Source: a bacterium
GTDB lineage: Bacteria > Thermosulfidibacterota > Thermosulfidibacteria > Thermosulfidibacterales > Thermosulfidibacteraceae
Length of the DNA stretch: 8,870 bases
Direction of reading: 5' to 3'
Assembly (NCBI GenBank): GCA_027022065.1
Contig: JALVZS010000116.1
Coordinates: 1 to 8,870, forward strand
Shown here: one piece after another, positions 1,075-8,870 of the stretch
Layout of the letters: each line of letters begins with the position of its first letter
Numbering within the stretch: the stretch's first letter is position 1
Program-made: the position numbers and the translations under genes
The notes under the pieces: generated by a model
Databases searched by the model: none
What the model saw: only the letters and a program-made list of their open reading frames with translations
Told to the model about the DNA's origin: nothing

Positions 1075-2706
1075 TTAAGTTTCCTTTAAAGCCCTGCGGA
1101 GTATTTTGCCTATAGCGCTTTTTGGCAGGGAATCGCGGAATTCTATTTCGGAAGGTACCTTGTAGGGCGCAAGGTGTTTCTTGAAATGCTCCAGCAGCTC
1201 TTCTTTGGAAGCGGTTTCTCCATCTTTTATAACCACAAATACCTTGATGCGTTCCCCTTTGTATGCATCTGGAATACCTATGGCCACGCCCTCTTTAACT
1301 TTAGGATGCTTGTAGAGCACCTCTTCTATCTCTCTGGGGAATACGTTAAAGCCTCCCACTATTATGAGATCCTTCTTCCTGTCTGTTATGTAGAAATAGC
1401 CTTCCTCGTCCATGTATCCTATGTCACCTGTGTATAGCCATCCGTCTTTTAATACTTCCTTGGTTTCTTTTTCTTTTTTGTAATACCCCATCATCACGGT
1501 GGGTGTTTTCAGCACTATCTCTCCCTGCTCCATGGGTGGTAGTTCTCTTTTGCCGTCTAGAGACACTATCTTTGCATCAACATCAGGAAAGGGAATACCT
1601 ATGCTTCCCACCTTGTGCTTTCCTTTGTAAGGGTTTGCCATTATGGCGGTAACCGCTTCTGTGAGGCCGTATCCCTCTATTACTCTGCACCCTGTTTTTC
1701 TTTCAAACTCCTCTTTTACTGCCTTGGTTAGTGGTGCAGCTCCAACCCATACTGCTTTTAGACTTGTCATGTCGTATTTTTCTAATCCTGGAGTGTTCAT
1801 TAGGGCTACGAGTATGGTTGGGACGACCGCTGTCATGGTGGGTTTGTACCTGTGGATGTGCTGAGCCATGAGTTTTGGGGAGAATTTTGGAAGAAGAACA
1901 ATGGATGCCCCTGCCAGTATAGGCGCATTCATGCAAACATTCATGCCGTATCCGTGGAAGAGGGGAAGCACCGATAACAACCTTTCCTCTGGCCCAAGAT
2001 TGCCCCATGTGGCTATTTGGAGGGCGTTGGAGCAAACTGCTTTGTGGGAAAGCATTATACCCTTTGCCACCCCTGTGGTTCCTCCAGAGTATATTATTAC
2101 GCCGAGATCTGACGGGTGTTTTTTAATGGGCTTGGGGCTCCTCCTGCTCTTGGTAAGATCTTTCATTTTGTAGTATTTGATGCCGACACCGGTTAGCTGC
2201 TTCCATTCTTTAAGTTTCATGGGTATGGCAAGTTTGAAGGGAAGGAAATCAGAAATATTTGATATTATCATAAACTTGAGTTTTAGCTTTCTTGCGATTT
2301 TTGCTACTTTTGGAGCAAACATGGGTATGGTGATTGCCCCAGCACACTCTGAATCTGATATCTGGTTGCTCAGCTCCTCCTCGGTATATAGGGGATTTAG
2401 AGGAACTGCCACTGCACCGGCCTTCAGAACTCCATAGTATGCAACGATGAAGCCTGGGAAGTTTGGCATAATGATGGCTATCTTGTCTTCAGGGCCTATT
2501 CCTAGTTCCTGCAGAGAATATCCTAAACTATCAGAATACTGTTTTGATGTTTCATAGCTAAATTTTCTTCCGAAGAAGATAGCTAGGGTTCCGTTTGGAT
2601 TCTTCTGGGCGCTTTTGTCAAGGAGATCCTGTATAAGAATATCGGGGTATTCCAAACTTTTGGGCACATGGGCGTCGTAGAATCTAAACCAGGGTCTTTC
2701 CATCAT
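1075..2706 (-). CDS. Long-chain-type acyl-CoA synthetase (AMP-forming, FadD-like), 543 residues
   Basis: This cytoplasmic ANL-superfamily ligase activates a carboxylic acid to its acyl-CoA via an acyl-adenylate, using ATP and CoA. Visible motifs are the phosphate-binding loop YSGGTTGVAKG (residues 206-216), the adenine-site GYGLTE (345-350), YTGD (425-428) with the ribose-binding Asp428, ITDRKKD (440-446) with hinge Arg443, GGFNVFPREIEE (451-462), and the C-terminal catalytic lysine Lys534 in AIGKILRR. Length is normal for the family and every core motif is intact. The closest general resemblance is to long-chain fatty acid:CoA ligases, but substrate cannot be read from sequence. Two adjacent ATG codons (2706-2704 and 2703-2701) could start it; neither has a clear Shine-Dalgarno sequence. 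It is transcribed away from the catabolic cluster and shares its 223-base upstream region, so co-regulation is plausible. Confidence 0.92.
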   Translation of the reverse strand: MMERPWFRFYDAHVPKSLEYPDILIQDLLDKSAQKNPNGTLAIFFGRKFSYETSKQYSDSLGYSLQELGIGPEDKIAIIMPNFPGFIVAYYGVLKAGAVAVPLNPLYTEEELSNQISDSECAGAITIPMFAPKVAKIARKLKLKFMIISNISDFLPFKLAIPMKLKEWKQLTGVGIKYYKMKDLTKSRRSPKPIKKHPSDLGVIIYSGGTTGVAKGIMLSHKAVCSNALQIATWGNLGPEERLLSVLPLFHGYGMNVCMNAPILAGASIVLLPKFSPKLMAQHIHRYKPTMTAVVPTILVALMNTPGLEKYDMTSLKAVWVGAAPLTKAVKEEFERKTGCRVIEGYGLTEAVTAIMANPYKGKHKVGSIGIPFPDVDAKIVSLDGKRELPPMEQGEIVLKTPTVMMGYYKKEKETKEVLKDGWLYTGDIGYMDEEGYFYITDRKKDLIIVGGFNVFPREIEEVLYKHPKVKEGVAIGIPDAYKGERIKVFVVIKDGETASKEELLEHFKKHLAPYKVPSEIEFRDSLPKSAIGKILRRALKET

Positions 2707-2929: not shown

Positions 2930-4744
2930 ATGAGGAAATTAGCAGGATGTTTCGTTGTTTTTCTGCTGCTATTTTCTTGGAGTGTTTCTCAGGCAAAGCT
3001 CATTCCTGAGGCGAAGTCTGGCTTCAGCAAGGTTATTATCCCGACCAAGTCTGGGATTGAAGTGCGGTTTGGTATGAACGAGATCTTTCACATTAACTGG
3101 TTGGAGAATCTTGACTTCTACGATAAGGCCACAGATCCTCTGATTTACACAGATCCAGAGGGCTACATCAGGGATAACTTCATGTTCCATCAGGTTTATC
3201 TCCCCATAGACTTTGTTAAGAAGGGGCAGTGGAAGGCTCATTTGGTATTTTCCTATAAGGGCAGTGATTTTGATCAGGGTGCAGATGCTGACTTTGGGAA
3301 ATATCCCAACGATAAGATGAATGGCGTTGACTACGACAGGTGGCGTGTTGAGAGGGCGGCATTTGACTTCAAGCTCAACTTCCTGCCCTTTAACGCCTGG
3401 CTCCAGGTGGGGCATGATTCCTATGTGCTTGATTACCTTCTCATCTATGGGGATGATGATCCTGGCATAAGGCTCTATGGTTCAATTAATAAGTTTGCTT
3501 TTGATATAAAGTATGTAAGGAAGTCTGAGCAGACGGATGTTGCCGATTTTGGAGTTGACTCAAACAGGGATATACTGGCAGCAAAGCTTTCCTATGATTT
3601 CGGTAAGCATTTTAAGCCTTCTCTTGTCTTTGCCTGGGACAGAAATGGCGCTATGACCAACTGGCAGAGCTTGCCCGCAGTGCCAGAAGCCGTGGCCAAT
3701 GCCTGTTTGCTGAAGTATTCGGCTTGTAAGGCTGGTGATATGGCAGCCTGTGCGTTTGTGCAGACCAAGTGCAACGGTTTGAAGCTTGCCAACCTAACAG
3801 ATGTGATAAGTAAGGGAAAGCTTCCCAAGTATAATTCTGTACCCATTGAGAATGCCGGCACCTGGGACATCTACTACCTTGGGCTTACCTCTACAGGCCT
3901 TGTAGGTCCTTTCAGGTACTTCTTTGAGGTGGCTTATCAGTTTGGAGATGTGGACCTTAAGGGTAAAGGCATGCTCATGCCTGATGGGGACTGGGAGGAT
4001 CACTTTGATGTAAGCGGCTGGGCTGGAATGCTCTTTCTGGCAACAGATCTTGGGTATCTCTATCCCTCACTGGGCAAGTTCATTGTAAGCTTTGGCGGTG
4101 TGTACTTCTCTGGGGATGACGATGCCAACGACAACGACTTAAATGGCTATGTGGGAGCCACCTCAGGCTCCAGGTTCTTCCCGCTAACCGGATTTTACAC
4201 TATTCCAATCCATGGAGGTACTTCAAATCCCATAATAGGACTTCCCACCTACGCCTGGAATCCTACAGGCTGGGGAGTTGGCCCTGGTATAGGAGGTTTG
4301 GCTGGTCAGCCCATAGATGTGGGAACTGCCTCTGCAGGTGCCCACGGAGACAATCCAGGTCTTTGGGCCCTCATGTTTACTGTGGACTGGTATCCTACAC
4401 CCAAGTGGGAGCTAAAAGCTCAGGTTAAGTATATGGAATGGGTTGATACAGACCCCATAGAGACACAGCTTGGCCACAACAAGATAGGGATGCTGAGGAT
4501 TCCCTATGTGGATCTCAAGGAGTTTGACTACAATAGAAAGGCTGCTTCGGACATAGACGAGGAGATTGGCTGGGAGGTTAACACCTTTGTCAACTATGAG
4601 ATATACGACGGCGTAAATATACAGGGCGGCTTCTCTGTTCTCTTTCCAGGGCAGGGTATAGAGGATATCAACAAGGTGCTTTACAACGATGATGATGCCG
4701 ATCCTGCCTGGCATGTGAGGCTGGGGGTAAGGTTCCTATTCTAA
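2930..4744 (+). CDS. Outer-membrane beta-barrel (porin-like) protein, 604 residues
   Basis: The N-terminus is a classical Sec signal peptide: Arg2-Lys3, a hydrophobic core (FVVFLLLF), and a likely signal peptidase I cut after SQA (residues 20-22). The mature protein has alternating polar/hydrophobic strands rich in Tyr, Trp, Phe and Gly (for example WKAHLVFSYKG, FRYFFEVAYQFG, WELKAQVKYMEW) and ends in the strand WHVRLGVRFLF. That terminal Phe is the usual recognition signal for the BAM assembly machinery. Long insertions look like surface loops: one (roughly 243-310) carries four cysteines, and others are very acidic (GDDDANDNDLNG near 395-406, NDDDAD near 586-591). The exact family is not recognised; it is not a clear FadL match. 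As the first gene of the cluster, 11 bases before an acyl-CoA synthetase, it probably brings the organic acid substrate across the outer membrane; this role is inferred from context. Confidence 0.85.
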   Translation: MRKLAGCFVVFLLLFSWSVSQAKLIPEAKSGFSKVIIPTKSGIEVRFGMNEIFHINWLENLDFYDKATDPLIYTDPEGYIRDNFMFHQVYLPIDFVKKGQWKAHLVFSYKGSDFDQGADADFGKYPNDKMNGVDYDRWRVERAAFDFKLNFLPFNAWLQVGHDSYVLDYLLIYGDDDPGIRLYGSINKFAFDIKYVRKSEQTDVADFGVDSNRDILAAKLSYDFGKHFKPSLVFAWDRNGAMTNWQSLPAVPEAVANACLLKYSACKAGDMAACAFVQTKCNGLKLANLTDVISKGKLPKYNSVPIENAGTWDIYYLGLTSTGLVGPFRYFFEVAYQFGDVDLKGKGMLMPDGDWEDHFDVSGWAGMLFLATDLGYLYPSLGKFIVSFGGVYFSGDDDANDNDLNGYVGATSGSRFFPLTGFYTIPIHGGTSNPIIGLPTYAWNPTGWGVGPGIGGLAGQPIDVGTASAGAHGDNPGLWALMFTVDWYPTPKWELKAQVKYMEWVDTDPIETQLGHNKIGMLRIPYVDLKEFDYNRKAASDIDEEIGWEVNTFVNYEIYDGVNIQGGFSVLFPGQGIEDINKVLYNDDDADPAWHVRLGVRFLF

Positions 4745-4750
4745 GGAGGT
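4743..4750 (+). promoter_or_regulatory. Strong ribosome binding site overlapping the preceding stop codon
   Basis: AAGGAGGT shares its first two bases with the TAA stop of the beta-barrel gene (4742-4744) and sits five bases before the ATG at 4756. It fixes the start of the acyl-CoA synthetase and allows re-initiation by ribosomes finishing the upstream gene. Confidence 0.8.
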
Positions 4751-4755
4751 AAGGT

Positions 4756-6396
4756 ATGGAGAGGTTCTTTTCTATTGGTTATAAGTTTCAGCTAAACATA
4801 TACAACCTGCTGGAGAGGACCCTTGAGTGGTCCCCCCAGCAGGAAATCGTTTATAGAGATGTCTTCAGGTACACATACGCGGACTTTTTCTCAAGGGTTA
4901 AAAAATTAGCTGCTTTATACAAGAGTTTGGAAATCAAGCCTGGCGATGTTGTGGGGGTTATGGACTGGGACTCCCATAGATACCTTGAGCACTACTACGC
5001 TGTGCCTATGATGGGTGCTATTCTTCACACTGTCAATGTTAGGCTCTCTCCTGAACAGTTGCTTTACACCATCAATGATGCCGAGGACAAACTGCTTGTG
5101 GTTCATAGGGATTTTATTCCACTACTTAAGGCTATAGAGCCAAGGCTTGAGACGGTTGATAAGATTATACTGATAGGAGACGGCCAGAAAGCGGAATACA
5201 CCTCTCCCAGGGTTGTGGGGGAATACGAGGAGCTTTTGGCGCAGGTAAAGGAGGACTACGAGTTTGACGATACTTTGGAAGAGAATACCATAGCAACCCT
5301 TTTCTACACCACGGGCACCACTGGAAATCCTAAGGGCGTTTACTTTACCCACAGACAGCTTGTGCTTCACACCTTATCTTTAGGTTTTGCCGCTGCGGCT
5401 TTCCATCAACCCGTTTCCTTTACATACACCGATGTTTACATGCCTCTTACCCCCATGTTCCATGTTCATGCGTGGGGAGTTCCCTATGTGGCCACACTTC
5501 TTGGGGTTAAGCAGGTTTATCCTGGAAGGTATGAGCCTGAGATGATTCTAAAGCTTTTGGTGAAGGAGAAGGTAACCTTTTCCCACTGTGTTCCCACTAT
5601 TCTGCACATGATAGTTACCCACCCTGCCACCAAAGATGTGGATCTTTCTGGCTGGAAGGTGATCATAGGTGGCTCTGCCTTGCCCAAAGGCTTGTGTAAG
5701 GCAGCGTGGGAGAGGGGCATAAAGGTGGCTTCAGGATACGGAATGTCTGAGACCTGCCCTGTTCTTACCTTGGCCCAGCTTAAGCCACACATGTTTGACT
5801 GGGATGAAGAGCGGAAGATTGATGTTTATACAAAAACGGGTTTCCCCGTTCCCCTTGTGAAGCTCAAGATTGTGGACATGGATATGAATGAACTGCCTCC
5901 TGGAAGGCATAATCAGGGAGAGATCGTTGTGAGGACTCCATGGCTTACCATGGGCTACTACAAGTCTGAGGAGAAGTCCAAAGAGCTGTGGAGGGGAGGC
6001 TGGCTGCACACGCAAGATGTGGCTTACAAGGACGAGGAGGGATACGTTAAGATCACGGATAGGTTGAAGGATGTTATAAAAACAGGAGGTGAGTGGGTTT
6101 CATCCCTTGAGCTTGAAAGCTTGATAAGTCAGCATCCTGCCGTTTCCGAGGTGGCTGTTATTGGCGTTCCTCATGAGAAGTGGGGAGAGCGCCCTGTGGC
6201 CCATGTGGTTTTGAAGCCCGAATATAAAGATAAAACCACAGAGGAGGAGCTCAAAGATTTCATGATGAAGTTTGTTGAAGCGGGAACCATTGAGAAGTGG
6301 GCTGTTCCCGACAGATTTGTGTTTGTTGATGAGCTTCCCAAAACCAGCGTTGGCAAGATAGACAAAAAGGCCATAAGGGCTCAGTATCAGCTGTGA
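4756..6396 (+). CDS. Fatty acyl-CoA synthetase, AlkK/medium-chain type, 546 residues
   Basis: A second AMP-forming acyl-CoA ligase that converts a carboxylic acid, ATP and CoA to acyl-CoA, AMP and PPi in the cytoplasm. Motifs in order are the P-loop YTTGTTGNPKG (184-194), PMFHVHAWGVPY (233-244, characteristic of the AlkK branch), SGYGMSET (326-333), the ribose-binding Asp421, ITDRLKD (433-439) with hinge Arg436, TGGEWVSSLELE (443-454) and catalytic Lys534 in SVGKIDKK. The usual TGD triplet around Asp421 reads TQD, with Gln420 in place of Gly. The protein is clearly different from the minus-strand ligase, so the two probably act on different acids or chain lengths. It lies 11 bases after the beta-barrel gene and overlaps the next gene by 4 bases, so its product should feed the reductase/dehydratase encoded next. 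Substrate is not determinable from the sequence. Confidence 0.93.
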   Translation: MERFFSIGYKFQLNIYNLLERTLEWSPQQEIVYRDVFRYTYADFFSRVKKLAALYKSLEIKPGDVVGVMDWDSHRYLEHYYAVPMMGAILHTVNVRLSPEQLLYTINDAEDKLLVVHRDFIPLLKAIEPRLETVDKIILIGDGQKAEYTSPRVVGEYEELLAQVKEDYEFDDTLEENTIATLFYTTGTTGNPKGVYFTHRQLVLHTLSLGFAAAAFHQPVSFTYTDVYMPLTPMFHVHAWGVPYVATLLGVKQVYPGRYEPEMILKLLVKEKVTFSHCVPTILHMIVTHPATKDVDLSGWKVIIGGSALPKGLCKAAWERGIKVASGYGMSETCPVLTLAQLKPHMFDWDEERKIDVYTKTGFPVPLVKLKIVDMDMNELPPGRHNQGEIVVRTPWLTMGYYKSEEKSKELWRGGWLHTQDVAYKDEEGYVKITDRLKDVIKTGGEWVSSLELESLISQHPAVSEVAVIGVPHEKWGERPVAHVVLKPEYKDKTTEEELKDFMMKFVEAGTIEKWAVPDRFVFVDELPKTSVGKIDKKAIRAQYQL

Positions 6397-7469
6397 CCAG
6401 AAGGGATGTCATTGAAAGGGCAAGGGAAGAAGGCAGACTTGTAGCGGCTGTATTCCCTATACGGTATCCAAGGGAGCTGTTAAGGGCCTTTGGCATTGAA
6501 CCTATTGAGGTGTGGGGTCCCCCAAGGGTGAGGGGTTCGGAAGGGGCCTCTCACCTTCAACCTTATATCTGTTCTGTGATTCACAATGGCCTTTCTTTCC
6601 TTCTAGAAGGTGGTCTGGATGATGTGGATCTTATCCTAGTTCCCCACTGTTGTGACAGCTTGCAGGGGCTTGGAAGCCTGCTGAAGGACTTTGTAAATCC
6701 TCGCCAAGAGGTGCTTACCTTTTATATACCCAGAGGGGACTATAAAGCGTCCAAGGATTTTTTGGTAAAGGAGCTTGTGATCCTTTATGAGAGGTTGAGG
6801 TCTATCACTGGTAAAGAGCCATCGGCTCAAGAGATTATGAGTAGTATCATTGAGGAAGAGATGGCAGATAGGCTTTCGCTGGAGCTTTACAGGAACAGAA
6901 AGCGTATAGGTTTGTCCAGCAGAGAGTTTGTGGAGATTTTGAGGAAGAGAGAGTATCTGCCTCCCAAGCTCTTTGCGGAGGAAGTTGAGAAAAGGCTTGA
7001 TGTTGCCAGCGGGGATGTTAAAGGTGTGGAGGTTATAATAAGTGGTATACTGCCTGAGCCTATGGATCTTCTTGACGAGATAGATGATGCGGGGGGCGTG
7101 GTCGTTTCTGATGACATGTCCTGTTTGAGGAGAAGGCTCTTGAAGCCTGGAAAGAGCGAGGATCCCTTTGAGAGAATAGCCGAAAGGCTTTTGTCGGCTC
7201 CCTATGATCCTGTTCTTGGATGTTTCTTCGCGGAGAGAATCTCCTTCTTAGAGAGGCTAATAGAAGAAACAGGGGCTAAAGGGGTTGTGTTTTACAATGT
7301 GAAGTTCTGTGAGGGGGAGGATTTCTACTATCCGGAGGTTTCAAGGTGGCTTAAAAGTAGAGGAATTGACTTTGTTAAAATAGAAGCGGACATAACACCT
7401 CCCTTACCGAAGCAGGTTTCTCAAAGACTGAGGGCTTTTATAGAGATTTTGGGAGAAAGGTGTGGCTAG
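6393..7469 (+). CDS. 2-hydroxyacyl-CoA dehydratase / benzoyl-CoA reductase family, small (HgdB/BcrC-like) subunit, 358 residues
   Basis: This is one half of a heterodimeric Fe-S enzyme that uses ATP-driven low-potential electrons to dehydrate a 2-hydroxyacyl-CoA or reduce an aromatic acyl-CoA. It opens with the family's N-terminal pattern ([26 protein letters not shown] region, residues 17-42). Three likely cluster ligands follow in the expected places: Cys60 in [11 protein letters not shown], Cys86 or Cys87 in VPHCCDSL, and Cys306 in [13 protein letters not shown]. The VVSDDMSC segment (237-244) and the closing IEADITPP stretch are also typical. At 358 residues it is somewhat shorter than the usual 370-390. 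Translation starts at GTG 6393, which overlaps the preceding TGA by 4 bases; there is no well-placed Shine-Dalgarno sequence, so it depends on coupling. Order before a 436-residue partner resembles bcrC-bcrB, but dehydratase function is equally possible. Confidence 0.9.
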
Positions 7470-8772
7470 TATTGTAAAGAAATTGAAATTAAAGGCGTTA
7501 AAGTTTGCTTTAGGTGCCAAAAGCTTTTGGGATTACATTACCTACTCCCCTCCTAAGGGGTGGAGGACAGATATACTGGCCCCACCCCTAAGGATAGGGG
7601 TTAAAACGAAGGAGCTGGTAACGAAGCATTATCTTGAGGGTGTCTATATAGATGGGGATAGGCCTGTTGCCTGGGTGACATCTGGGGCTCCCGTTGAGTT
7701 TCTGAAGGCATTAGGTTTCTATGTGCTTTATCCAGAGAACCATGCCGCTTTGTGTGGTGCAAGAAGGGTTGCTCTGGAGCTGTGCCAGAAAGCAGAGGAA
7801 AGGGGATATTCCATAGATATATGTTCCTATGCCAGAACGGACATAGGATCTCTGCTTTCTAGAAAGACTCCTGTTGGTAAACTTCCAAAGCCTGATCTGC
7901 TTCTCTGCTGCACCAATATCTGCCAAACTGTGCTTTACTGGTATCAGGTTTTGTCCCATTATTTTGATGTTCCTTTGGTAATTATAGATACTCCCTTTGT
8001 GTATTCAGAGGCCACCGATGCTGATCTAGAGTATGTAAAAAAGCAGATAGAAGCTGCCATTGAGGTTGCAGAAAGGATTTCTGGAAGAGCACTTGATTTT
8101 AACAGGTTAAGGGATGTTATGAAGCTCAGTAAGATGGCTACAGAACTGTGGCTTGAGGTTATATACACGGGTAAGCACATTCCGTCTCCCATCTCTGCTT
8201 TTGATCAGTTTATTCACATGGCCCCCATAGTGGAGATGAGAGGGGATTCGCAAACCGTGGACTTTTATGGGGCCATGCTGAAGGAGCTCAAAAAGAGGGT
8301 AAGTAAGGGCATTGGTGCTGTTGTTAAGGAAAGAAAAAGGGTTTTGTGGGATAATTTGCCCATATGGCATAGCTTGAGGTTCCTATCTGAAACCTTGGCG
8401 GATTGGGGAGTGTGCGTGGTTACCTCCACCTATACATACGCTTGGGGAGAGCTGGCTCCCATGATAGATCCTGACAGGCCTGTTGAGTCCATGGCTAAGG
8501 TGTACTTACATCCAATACTCAATAGGGGAACAGGTGATAAATACAGACTTATGAAAGGCATGATAGAAGACTTCCATCTTGACGGTGTTATCCTGCACTC
8601 GGACCGCTCTTGCAAACCCTATTCCATAGGCCAGATGGATCAGAGGACGAATATCGTTCAGGATCTAAAAATCCCTGCTGTTCTGGTGGAGTCTGATCAC
8701 AACGATCCCAGGGCCTTTTCTGAGAAGCAGGTTATAAATAGACTCAAGGCCTTTGTGGAGATGATGGGATGA
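7462..8772 (+). CDS. 2-hydroxyacyl-CoA dehydratase / benzoyl-CoA reductase family, large (HgdA/BcrB-like) subunit, 436 residues
   Basis: This is the partner of the preceding subunit, expected to bind the CoA thioester and a second Fe-S cluster. Family signatures are [13 protein letters not shown] (90-102), [12 protein letters not shown] (115-126) with Cys121, [12 protein letters not shown] (146-157) with Cys149, Cys150 and Cys154, and [15 protein letters not shown] (379-393) with Cys384, followed by [15 protein letters not shown] (409-423). Cys121, one of the 149/150/154 group and Cys384 are the likely cluster ligands. The length matches BcrB/BzdO-type subunits (about 435-450) better than longer HgdA proteins, which mildly favours the benzoyl-CoA reductase side. 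It begins at GTG 7462, six bases after GGAG (7452-7455), and overlaps the previous stop by 8 bases. The N-terminal 30 residues are basic and hydrophobic, with no signal peptide. Substrate remains uncertain. Confidence 0.92.
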
Positions 8773-8870
8773 GGGATTTGAGGGCTGTTGGGATAGATGC
8801 AGGCTCAACTGCTATAAAGGTGGTAGGTGTTAACAGCAAGGGAGAGTTGCTTTACCACAAGGTGGAACCT
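8769..8870 (+). CDS. BcrA/BadF/HgdC-type ASKHA ATPase, dehydratase/reductase activator (5' part only)
   Basis: Thirty-four codons are present before the window ends. The N-terminus contains [13 protein letters not shown] (residues 7-19), the phosphate-1 motif of acetate/sugar kinase-Hsp70-actin fold ATPases. It is characteristic of the Fe-S protein that drives electrons into 2-hydroxyacyl-CoA dehydratases and class I benzoyl-CoA reductases with ATP hydrolysis. The ATG at 8769 overlaps the previous TGA (8770-8772), and GGAG at 8757-8760 lies eight bases upstream. Position directly after the two catalytic subunits makes the assignment firm. The part that would show the cluster-binding cysteines and tell a single HgdC-type activator from a BcrA/BcrD pair is outside the window. 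Confidence 0.88.

Follow-up and report, generated by a model that had tools for sequence, protein, structure and literature searches.

The stretch of DNA analyzed here, an 8,870-base contig (C116; JALVZS010000116.1, hereafter the window) from a bacterium of the family Thermosulfidibacteraceae, encodes the two subunits of a radical enzyme of the 2-hydroxyacyl-CoA-dehydratase type, preceded on the same strand by an outer-membrane beta-barrel protein and an AasS-like ligase. Our preferred reading, which we put at roughly one chance in two, is that a recurrent cassette of ligase, two-subunit dehydratase and activase was rearranged in the host lineage by insertion of the barrel and the AasS-like ligase. 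We establish the gene content of the locus, the orthology of its genes, the gene order in 22 relatives and the conservation of the catalytic residues.

The window is an entire contig of a draft genome (G000) of 1.57 Mb in 251 contigs. An earlier note on this DNA had described five co-directional genes, and a check of the open reading frames reproduced all of its coordinates: the plus-strand genes lie at 2930–4744, 4756–6396, 6393–7469 and 7462–8772, with a fifth starting at 8769, spaced by +11, -4, -8 and -4 bases. They form one compact operon-like run encoding the barrel (604 amino acids), the AasS-like fatty-acid-activating ligase (546), an HgdB/HadC-like subunit (358), an HgdA/HadB-like catalytic subunit (436) and the first 34 residues of a BadF/HgdC-type ATPase, or activase, which is cut off by the contig end at 8870. 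With the barrel in first place, the layout is, as the note remarked, not that of a standard bcr or bzd operon. The gene set that it listed stands; missing from it was the key neighbor, a fatty-acyl-CoA-ligase-like AMP-forming ligase of 543 amino acids (1075–2706, minus strand; Pfam AMP-binding) that diverges from the operon. The intergenic region between them (2707–2929) holds a promoter-like site on the plus strand (2822–2851, TTGACA-N18-TTTAAT), the sole match in the window with 0.02 expected by chance; its end lies 79 bases upstream of the barrel gene. The AasS-like ligase has its own, strong Shine-Dalgarno sequence, AAGGAGGT (4743–4750, plus strand), overlapping the barrel stop codon. Together with the single promoter-like site ahead of the barrel, it fits one transcript beginning at the barrel; the five genes may thus be co-transcribed from 2822–2851, a site identified by its match to the consensus only.

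The gene order in relatives carries the argument for rearrangement. Close relatives of HgdA (57–70% identity), gathered from genome contigs and genome searches, gave 22 loci besides the window, which are not independent, since L046 and L047, and likewise L138–L142, are near relatives. Ten of these 22 loci, spanning at least three lineages, carry an ortholog of the divergent ligase (60–68% identity) immediately before HgdB and on its strand: L069 of the sister genus (genome G001), L046, L047, L130, L131 and L138–L142. This ortholog overlaps HgdB in nine of the ten and is separated from it by 142 bases in the other, and the order runs ligase, HgdB, HgdA and then usually one ATPase. The upstream ligase of L137 is only distantly related (28%). 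One ATPase adjoins HgdA in 18 of the 22 loci; at L049 two lie upstream, L052 and L142 break off too soon, and beside the HgdA of L134 none was seen. In ligase trees, the divergent ligase joins its G001 and L046 counterparts (support 100/100), and the AasS-like one falls into another clade, alongside ligases of the distant genomes G051 and G028. Neither the barrel nor an AasS-like ligase adjoins a close HgdA relative at any of the 22 loci, and nine genomes that host dehydratase relatives contain no AasS-like ligase at E≤1e-100. The five-gene order, for which the earlier note had suggested a search in other genomes, recurs in 0 of the 22, and its proposal, which ties the barrel and the embedded ligase specifically to the dehydratase, is not borne out, the ligase that recurs being the divergent one. 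By parsimony, ligase-HgdB-HgdA-ATPase would be the older order and the window the rearranged one, a polarity that we infer; trees of HgdA or HgdB alone do not settle how the window, G001 and the remaining relatives branch. The host order is represented in the sample by nine genomes only (G000–G008), among which the window genome and G001 alone carry both the dehydratase and the divergent-ligase ortholog. These are draft genomes in which absence is weak evidence, and the five-gene order could occur in unsampled members of the family.

The barrel has a signal-peptide-like N-terminus and a C-terminal phenylalanine, features shared with the AlgE-type alginate-export barrels, which it resembles remotely. 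Three of nine members of its family match Pfam Alginate_exp (PF13372; best E 3e-7), one homologue scoring 29.9, above the gathering cut-off of 25.2; by contrast, the window copy itself matched neither this nor any other family in the Pfam scan. A profile of the barrel family found no match in the PDB, and a single-sequence AlphaFold model of the barrel (predicted local distance difference test score, pLDDT, 31.5) was discarded. A role in transport is a prediction. Within the searched sample, close homologues are confined to the host order, in G001–G007 and on a second contig of the window genome (G000:C84), and G004 has two copies in tandem. In G003–G007 and on G000:C84 the barrel lies downstream of an FG-GAP-repeat gene; in G002 only the barrel end is visible, followed by a phosphoesterase-like gene; and the barrel of G001, the sole true ortholog (76%), follows trp genes (named by eye). 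Within readable DNA, no other copy in the order adjoins dehydratase genes, the neighbors apart from the FG-GAP-repeat gene being of housekeeping kind. The barrel homologues therefore sit away from the dehydratase, the outcome that the earlier note had named as counting against its proposal, with the gene downstream of the G001 ortholog unreadable. The FG-GAP-repeat gene is itself conserved (about 620 amino acids; L071:4644-8299, L070:6315-11890, L073:2751-6502, L074:10916-14356, L075:5269-8884) and likely encodes a secreted partner.

The ligase that precedes the dehydratase genes has its closest relatives outside the host order. Its best match in the PDB is Vibrio harveyi AasS (8hsy, E 2e-189), with 53.6% identity over 532 positions. 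It also carries Pfam AMP-binding and AMP-binding_C and scores 645 bits in NCBIfam PRK06187, a fatty-acid-CoA ligase family with a cut-off of 476. In the alignment it keeps the catalytic and gate residues equivalent to AasS W230, D411, R426 and K432, with W230 inside the HAW fatty-acid gate motif. AasS itself, a soluble acyl-ACP synthetase, recycles fatty acids of exogenous origin by loading them onto acyl carrier protein (ACP; PMC11271967); the window ligase differs from it in being set beside a barrel and a dehydratase. These features point to activation of fatty acids rather than aromatics. Relatives at 59–62% identity occur in G051 and G028, and the best ones inside the host order reach 40–42% (G005–G008). 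In G028 (L096:3170-6414), the AasS-like ligase is followed 113 bases on by a 495-residue signal-peptide protein ending in phenylalanine, a possible barrel with no significant similarity to that of the window. Base composition adds little to this picture. The GC content of all five genes lies inside the host range, and third-position GC is 0.47–0.49 in HgdA, HgdB and the divergent ligase versus 0.53–0.55 in the barrel and the AasS-like ligase, values that stray from the mean of host genes by no more than about one standard deviation.

Both catalytic subunits were recognizable as the earlier note had stated, each being an HGD-D protein (PF06050) encoded side by side with the other. The nearest solved relative of HgdA is HadB (3o3m_A, E 2e-71) and that of HgdB, by sequence and by fold, is HadC. 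In HgdA, C121, C154, C384 and S74 are invariant and E92 is present in 23 of 24 alignment rows; in HgdB, C60, C87 and C306 are invariant in 21 of 21. The three cluster cysteines per subunit match HadB C84, C117 and C346 and their HadC equivalents in the window and its orthologs. The ATPase family could likewise be assigned, even though the frame runs for just 102 bases: its 34 amino acids give a weak NCBIfam match (E 8e-4) and are 59% identical over 27 residues to the complete ATPase that occupies this position in the sister genus, a BcrAD_BadFG protein or acyl-CoA dehydratase activase (TIGR00241). Full-length orthologs at this position are single TIGR00241 activases with both cluster cysteines present.

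The locus resembles HadABC of Clostridioides difficile (HadBC, PDB 3o3m) in having a pair of HGD-D subunits, each with three cluster cysteines, in a probably single activase and in the conserved equivalents of the active-site residues Ser37 and Glu55; among solved structures, HadBC is nearest to it in both sequence and fold. It differs in its low identity, in scores far under the equivalog cut-offs and in its AMP-forming, fatty-acid-type ligase neighbors. Because the NCBIfam equivalogs reach only 297 of 750 bits (HadB) and 100 of 700 bits (HadC), we rejected (R)-2-hydroxyisocaproyl-CoA dehydratase proper. The class I benzoyl-CoA reductase equivalogs (TIGR02260, TIGR02263, TIGR03190 and TIGR03191) all fell far below cut-off, and double-cubane cluster protein (DCCP) was dismissed at 76 and 73 bits in NF040772 versus the 350 needed. 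A true DCCP is encoded elsewhere in the genome (L005:3145-4428, on G000:C5; 483 bits, above cut-off).

On our preferred reading, the core would be an ATP-activated radical dehydratase of the 2-hydroxyacyl-CoA dehydratase (HAD) kind, encoded by three genes. By analogy to HadABC, ATP spent by a homodimeric BadF-type activase would drive an electron onto the [4Fe-4S] clusters of an HgdA-HgdB heterodimer; so charged, the heterodimer would dehydrate a 2-hydroxyacyl-CoA to an enoyl-CoA. The divergent ligase, as the recurrent partner, would activate the acid substrate. In the host lineage it would have been split off and inverted, with the barrel and the AasS-like ligase placed between, at the start of the dehydratase operon. 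These two most likely serve as a general pair for fatty-acid entry and activation that became co-transcribed without being required by the dehydratase. Both the reaction and the substrate class, a fatty and perhaps 2-hydroxy acid, are predictions, the latter read from the ligase families alone. The dehydratase product may pass into ordinary beta-oxidation. The genome has a beta-oxidation operon on contig C34, with a 3-hydroxyacyl-CoA dehydrogenase/enoyl hydratase, a thiolase, an acyl-CoA dehydrogenase and its own ligase, and related cassettes have an acyl-CoA dehydrogenase nearby at L141, and Etf together with acyl-CoA dehydrogenase at L135.

Several observations weigh against such a rearrangement. 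The divergent-ligase ortholog is not next door in 12 of the 22 relatives, the activase in the window contig comprises just 34 amino acids, and the barrel ortholog of G001, a 71% complete genome, is ended by its contig end, leaving the downstream gene unseen. The 4-base overlap between the window ligase and HgdB is moreover as tight as among the relatives, and selection may therefore have favored the new order because of a functional link. In line with this last point, the five genes could form the self-contained uptake-activation-reduction pathway proposed in the earlier note: a specific acid would enter through the barrel, be activated by the ligase at 4756–6396 and be handed as a thioester to the dehydratase. 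The tight co-directional spacing, the ribosome-binding site, the single promoter-like site before the barrel and the ligase-HgdB overlap all fit this, as does the pairing in G028 of another AasS-like ligase with an unrelated possible barrel. We nevertheless regard it as rather unlikely, because the five-gene order recurs at none of the 22 other loci, the barrel family occurs elsewhere apart from dehydratases, and the recurrent partner is a different ligase, still adjacent at 1075–2706. Distinctly less probable is a composite in which the operon handles long-chain 2-hydroxy fatty acids, with entry through the barrel, AasS-like activation and HAD-type dehydration for beta-oxidation, the second, ancestral ligase standing under the divergent promoter. 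It is also unlikely, if slightly less so than this composite, that the barrel and the AasS-like ligase turn scavenged exogenous fatty acids into acyl-ACP destined for membrane lipids, and have only their transcript, and no pathway, in common with the dehydratase. The identity to AasS and the conserved HAW motif speak for such salvage; however, a preference for CoA or ACP is unreadable from sequence, NCBIfam names the family a fatty-acid-CoA ligase, and sharing a transcript with a catabolic enzyme would be odd for lipid salvage.

The distinction from an ATP-dependent aryl-CoA (benzoyl-CoA) reductase, which would make the operon an aromatic-acid pathway as the earlier note had thought possible, turns on finer features. 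Class I benzoyl-CoA reductases (BzdNOPQ, MbdONPQ, Bcr; features from PMC11971306) share the superfamily, the fold and activation by ATPase, and the active-site Ser and Glu of BzdO are conserved in the window too. The extra double-cubane cysteines of BzdN and DCCP, however, are not present in the HgdB alignment of the window clade, where none of the corresponding positions is Cys and residue 22 is proline in 21 of 21 rows; they do occur in more distant relatives (L104, L055 and L056). Because HadC and MbdN, the latter from 3-methylbenzoyl-CoA reductase, also lack them, this speaks against a Bzd-type reductase and not against an Mbd-type one. Fold alone does not decide between dehydratase and reductase, since in comparisons of an AlphaFold model of HgdB (pLDDT 84) HadC ranked first with BzdN within about 1 Z unit (Foldseek, VIA-align). 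The HadB model scores 297 bits versus 179 for BcrB and 143 for BzdO, all below cut-off, and BzdO His131 is replaced by Val in the alignment. One relative, L049 (64%), has two ATPases as benzoyl-CoA reductases do, against the single ATPase of most relatives. The ligases also speak against an aromatic substrate, since the nearest relatives of both are fatty-acid ligases. Together, these points make the reductase quite improbable. Least credible of all, and very improbable, is an assembly chimera of a barrel-ligase piece and a dehydratase piece: the contig is short, the draft fragmented and the gene order unique to the host genome, yet the ligase-HgdB junction is an exact 4-base start/stop overlap, the barrel-ligase junction carries a ribosome-binding site, GC stays within the host range, and the barrel and dehydratase are both nearest to G001.

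Further arrangements of these genes were seen among the relatives. At L049:4963-9194, from a bin labeled Parcubacteria (a label doubtful for such genes), two BadF ATPases stand directly before HgdB and HgdA, which is the four-subunit arrangement of benzoyl-CoA reductases. In G031 (L104:6233-10085), HgdB has the extra double-cubane cysteines and a tandem pair of HgdA-like genes comes after it, each about 46% identical to HgdA of the window. Campylobacterota/Hippea bins (L063, L064 and L067) have a longer operon of ligase, HgdB, HgdA and acyl-CoA-type genes (names by eye), with an HgdA 36% identical to the window copy. At the other end of the window, a tRNA-Leu (CAA) occupies 85–171 on the plus strand and is overlapped by the listed open reading frame at 60–1061, whose true start must therefore be later; its part from 156 on matches no Pfam or NCBIfam family.

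The five-gene layout appears to be a local rearrangement and should therefore not be cited as evidence of a dedicated transporter. The recurrent element is a so far uncharacterized clade of two-subunit, activase-driven dehydratases, found in several bacterial lineages and frequently accompanied by one and the same fatty-acid-type ligase; we found no ligase-HAD cassette of this kind described in the open-licence literature. The solved members of the superfamily that we found are HadBC, benzoyl- or methylbenzoyl-CoA reductases and double-cubane proteins only, so a fatty-acyl enzyme, if true, would extend the range of the superfamily.

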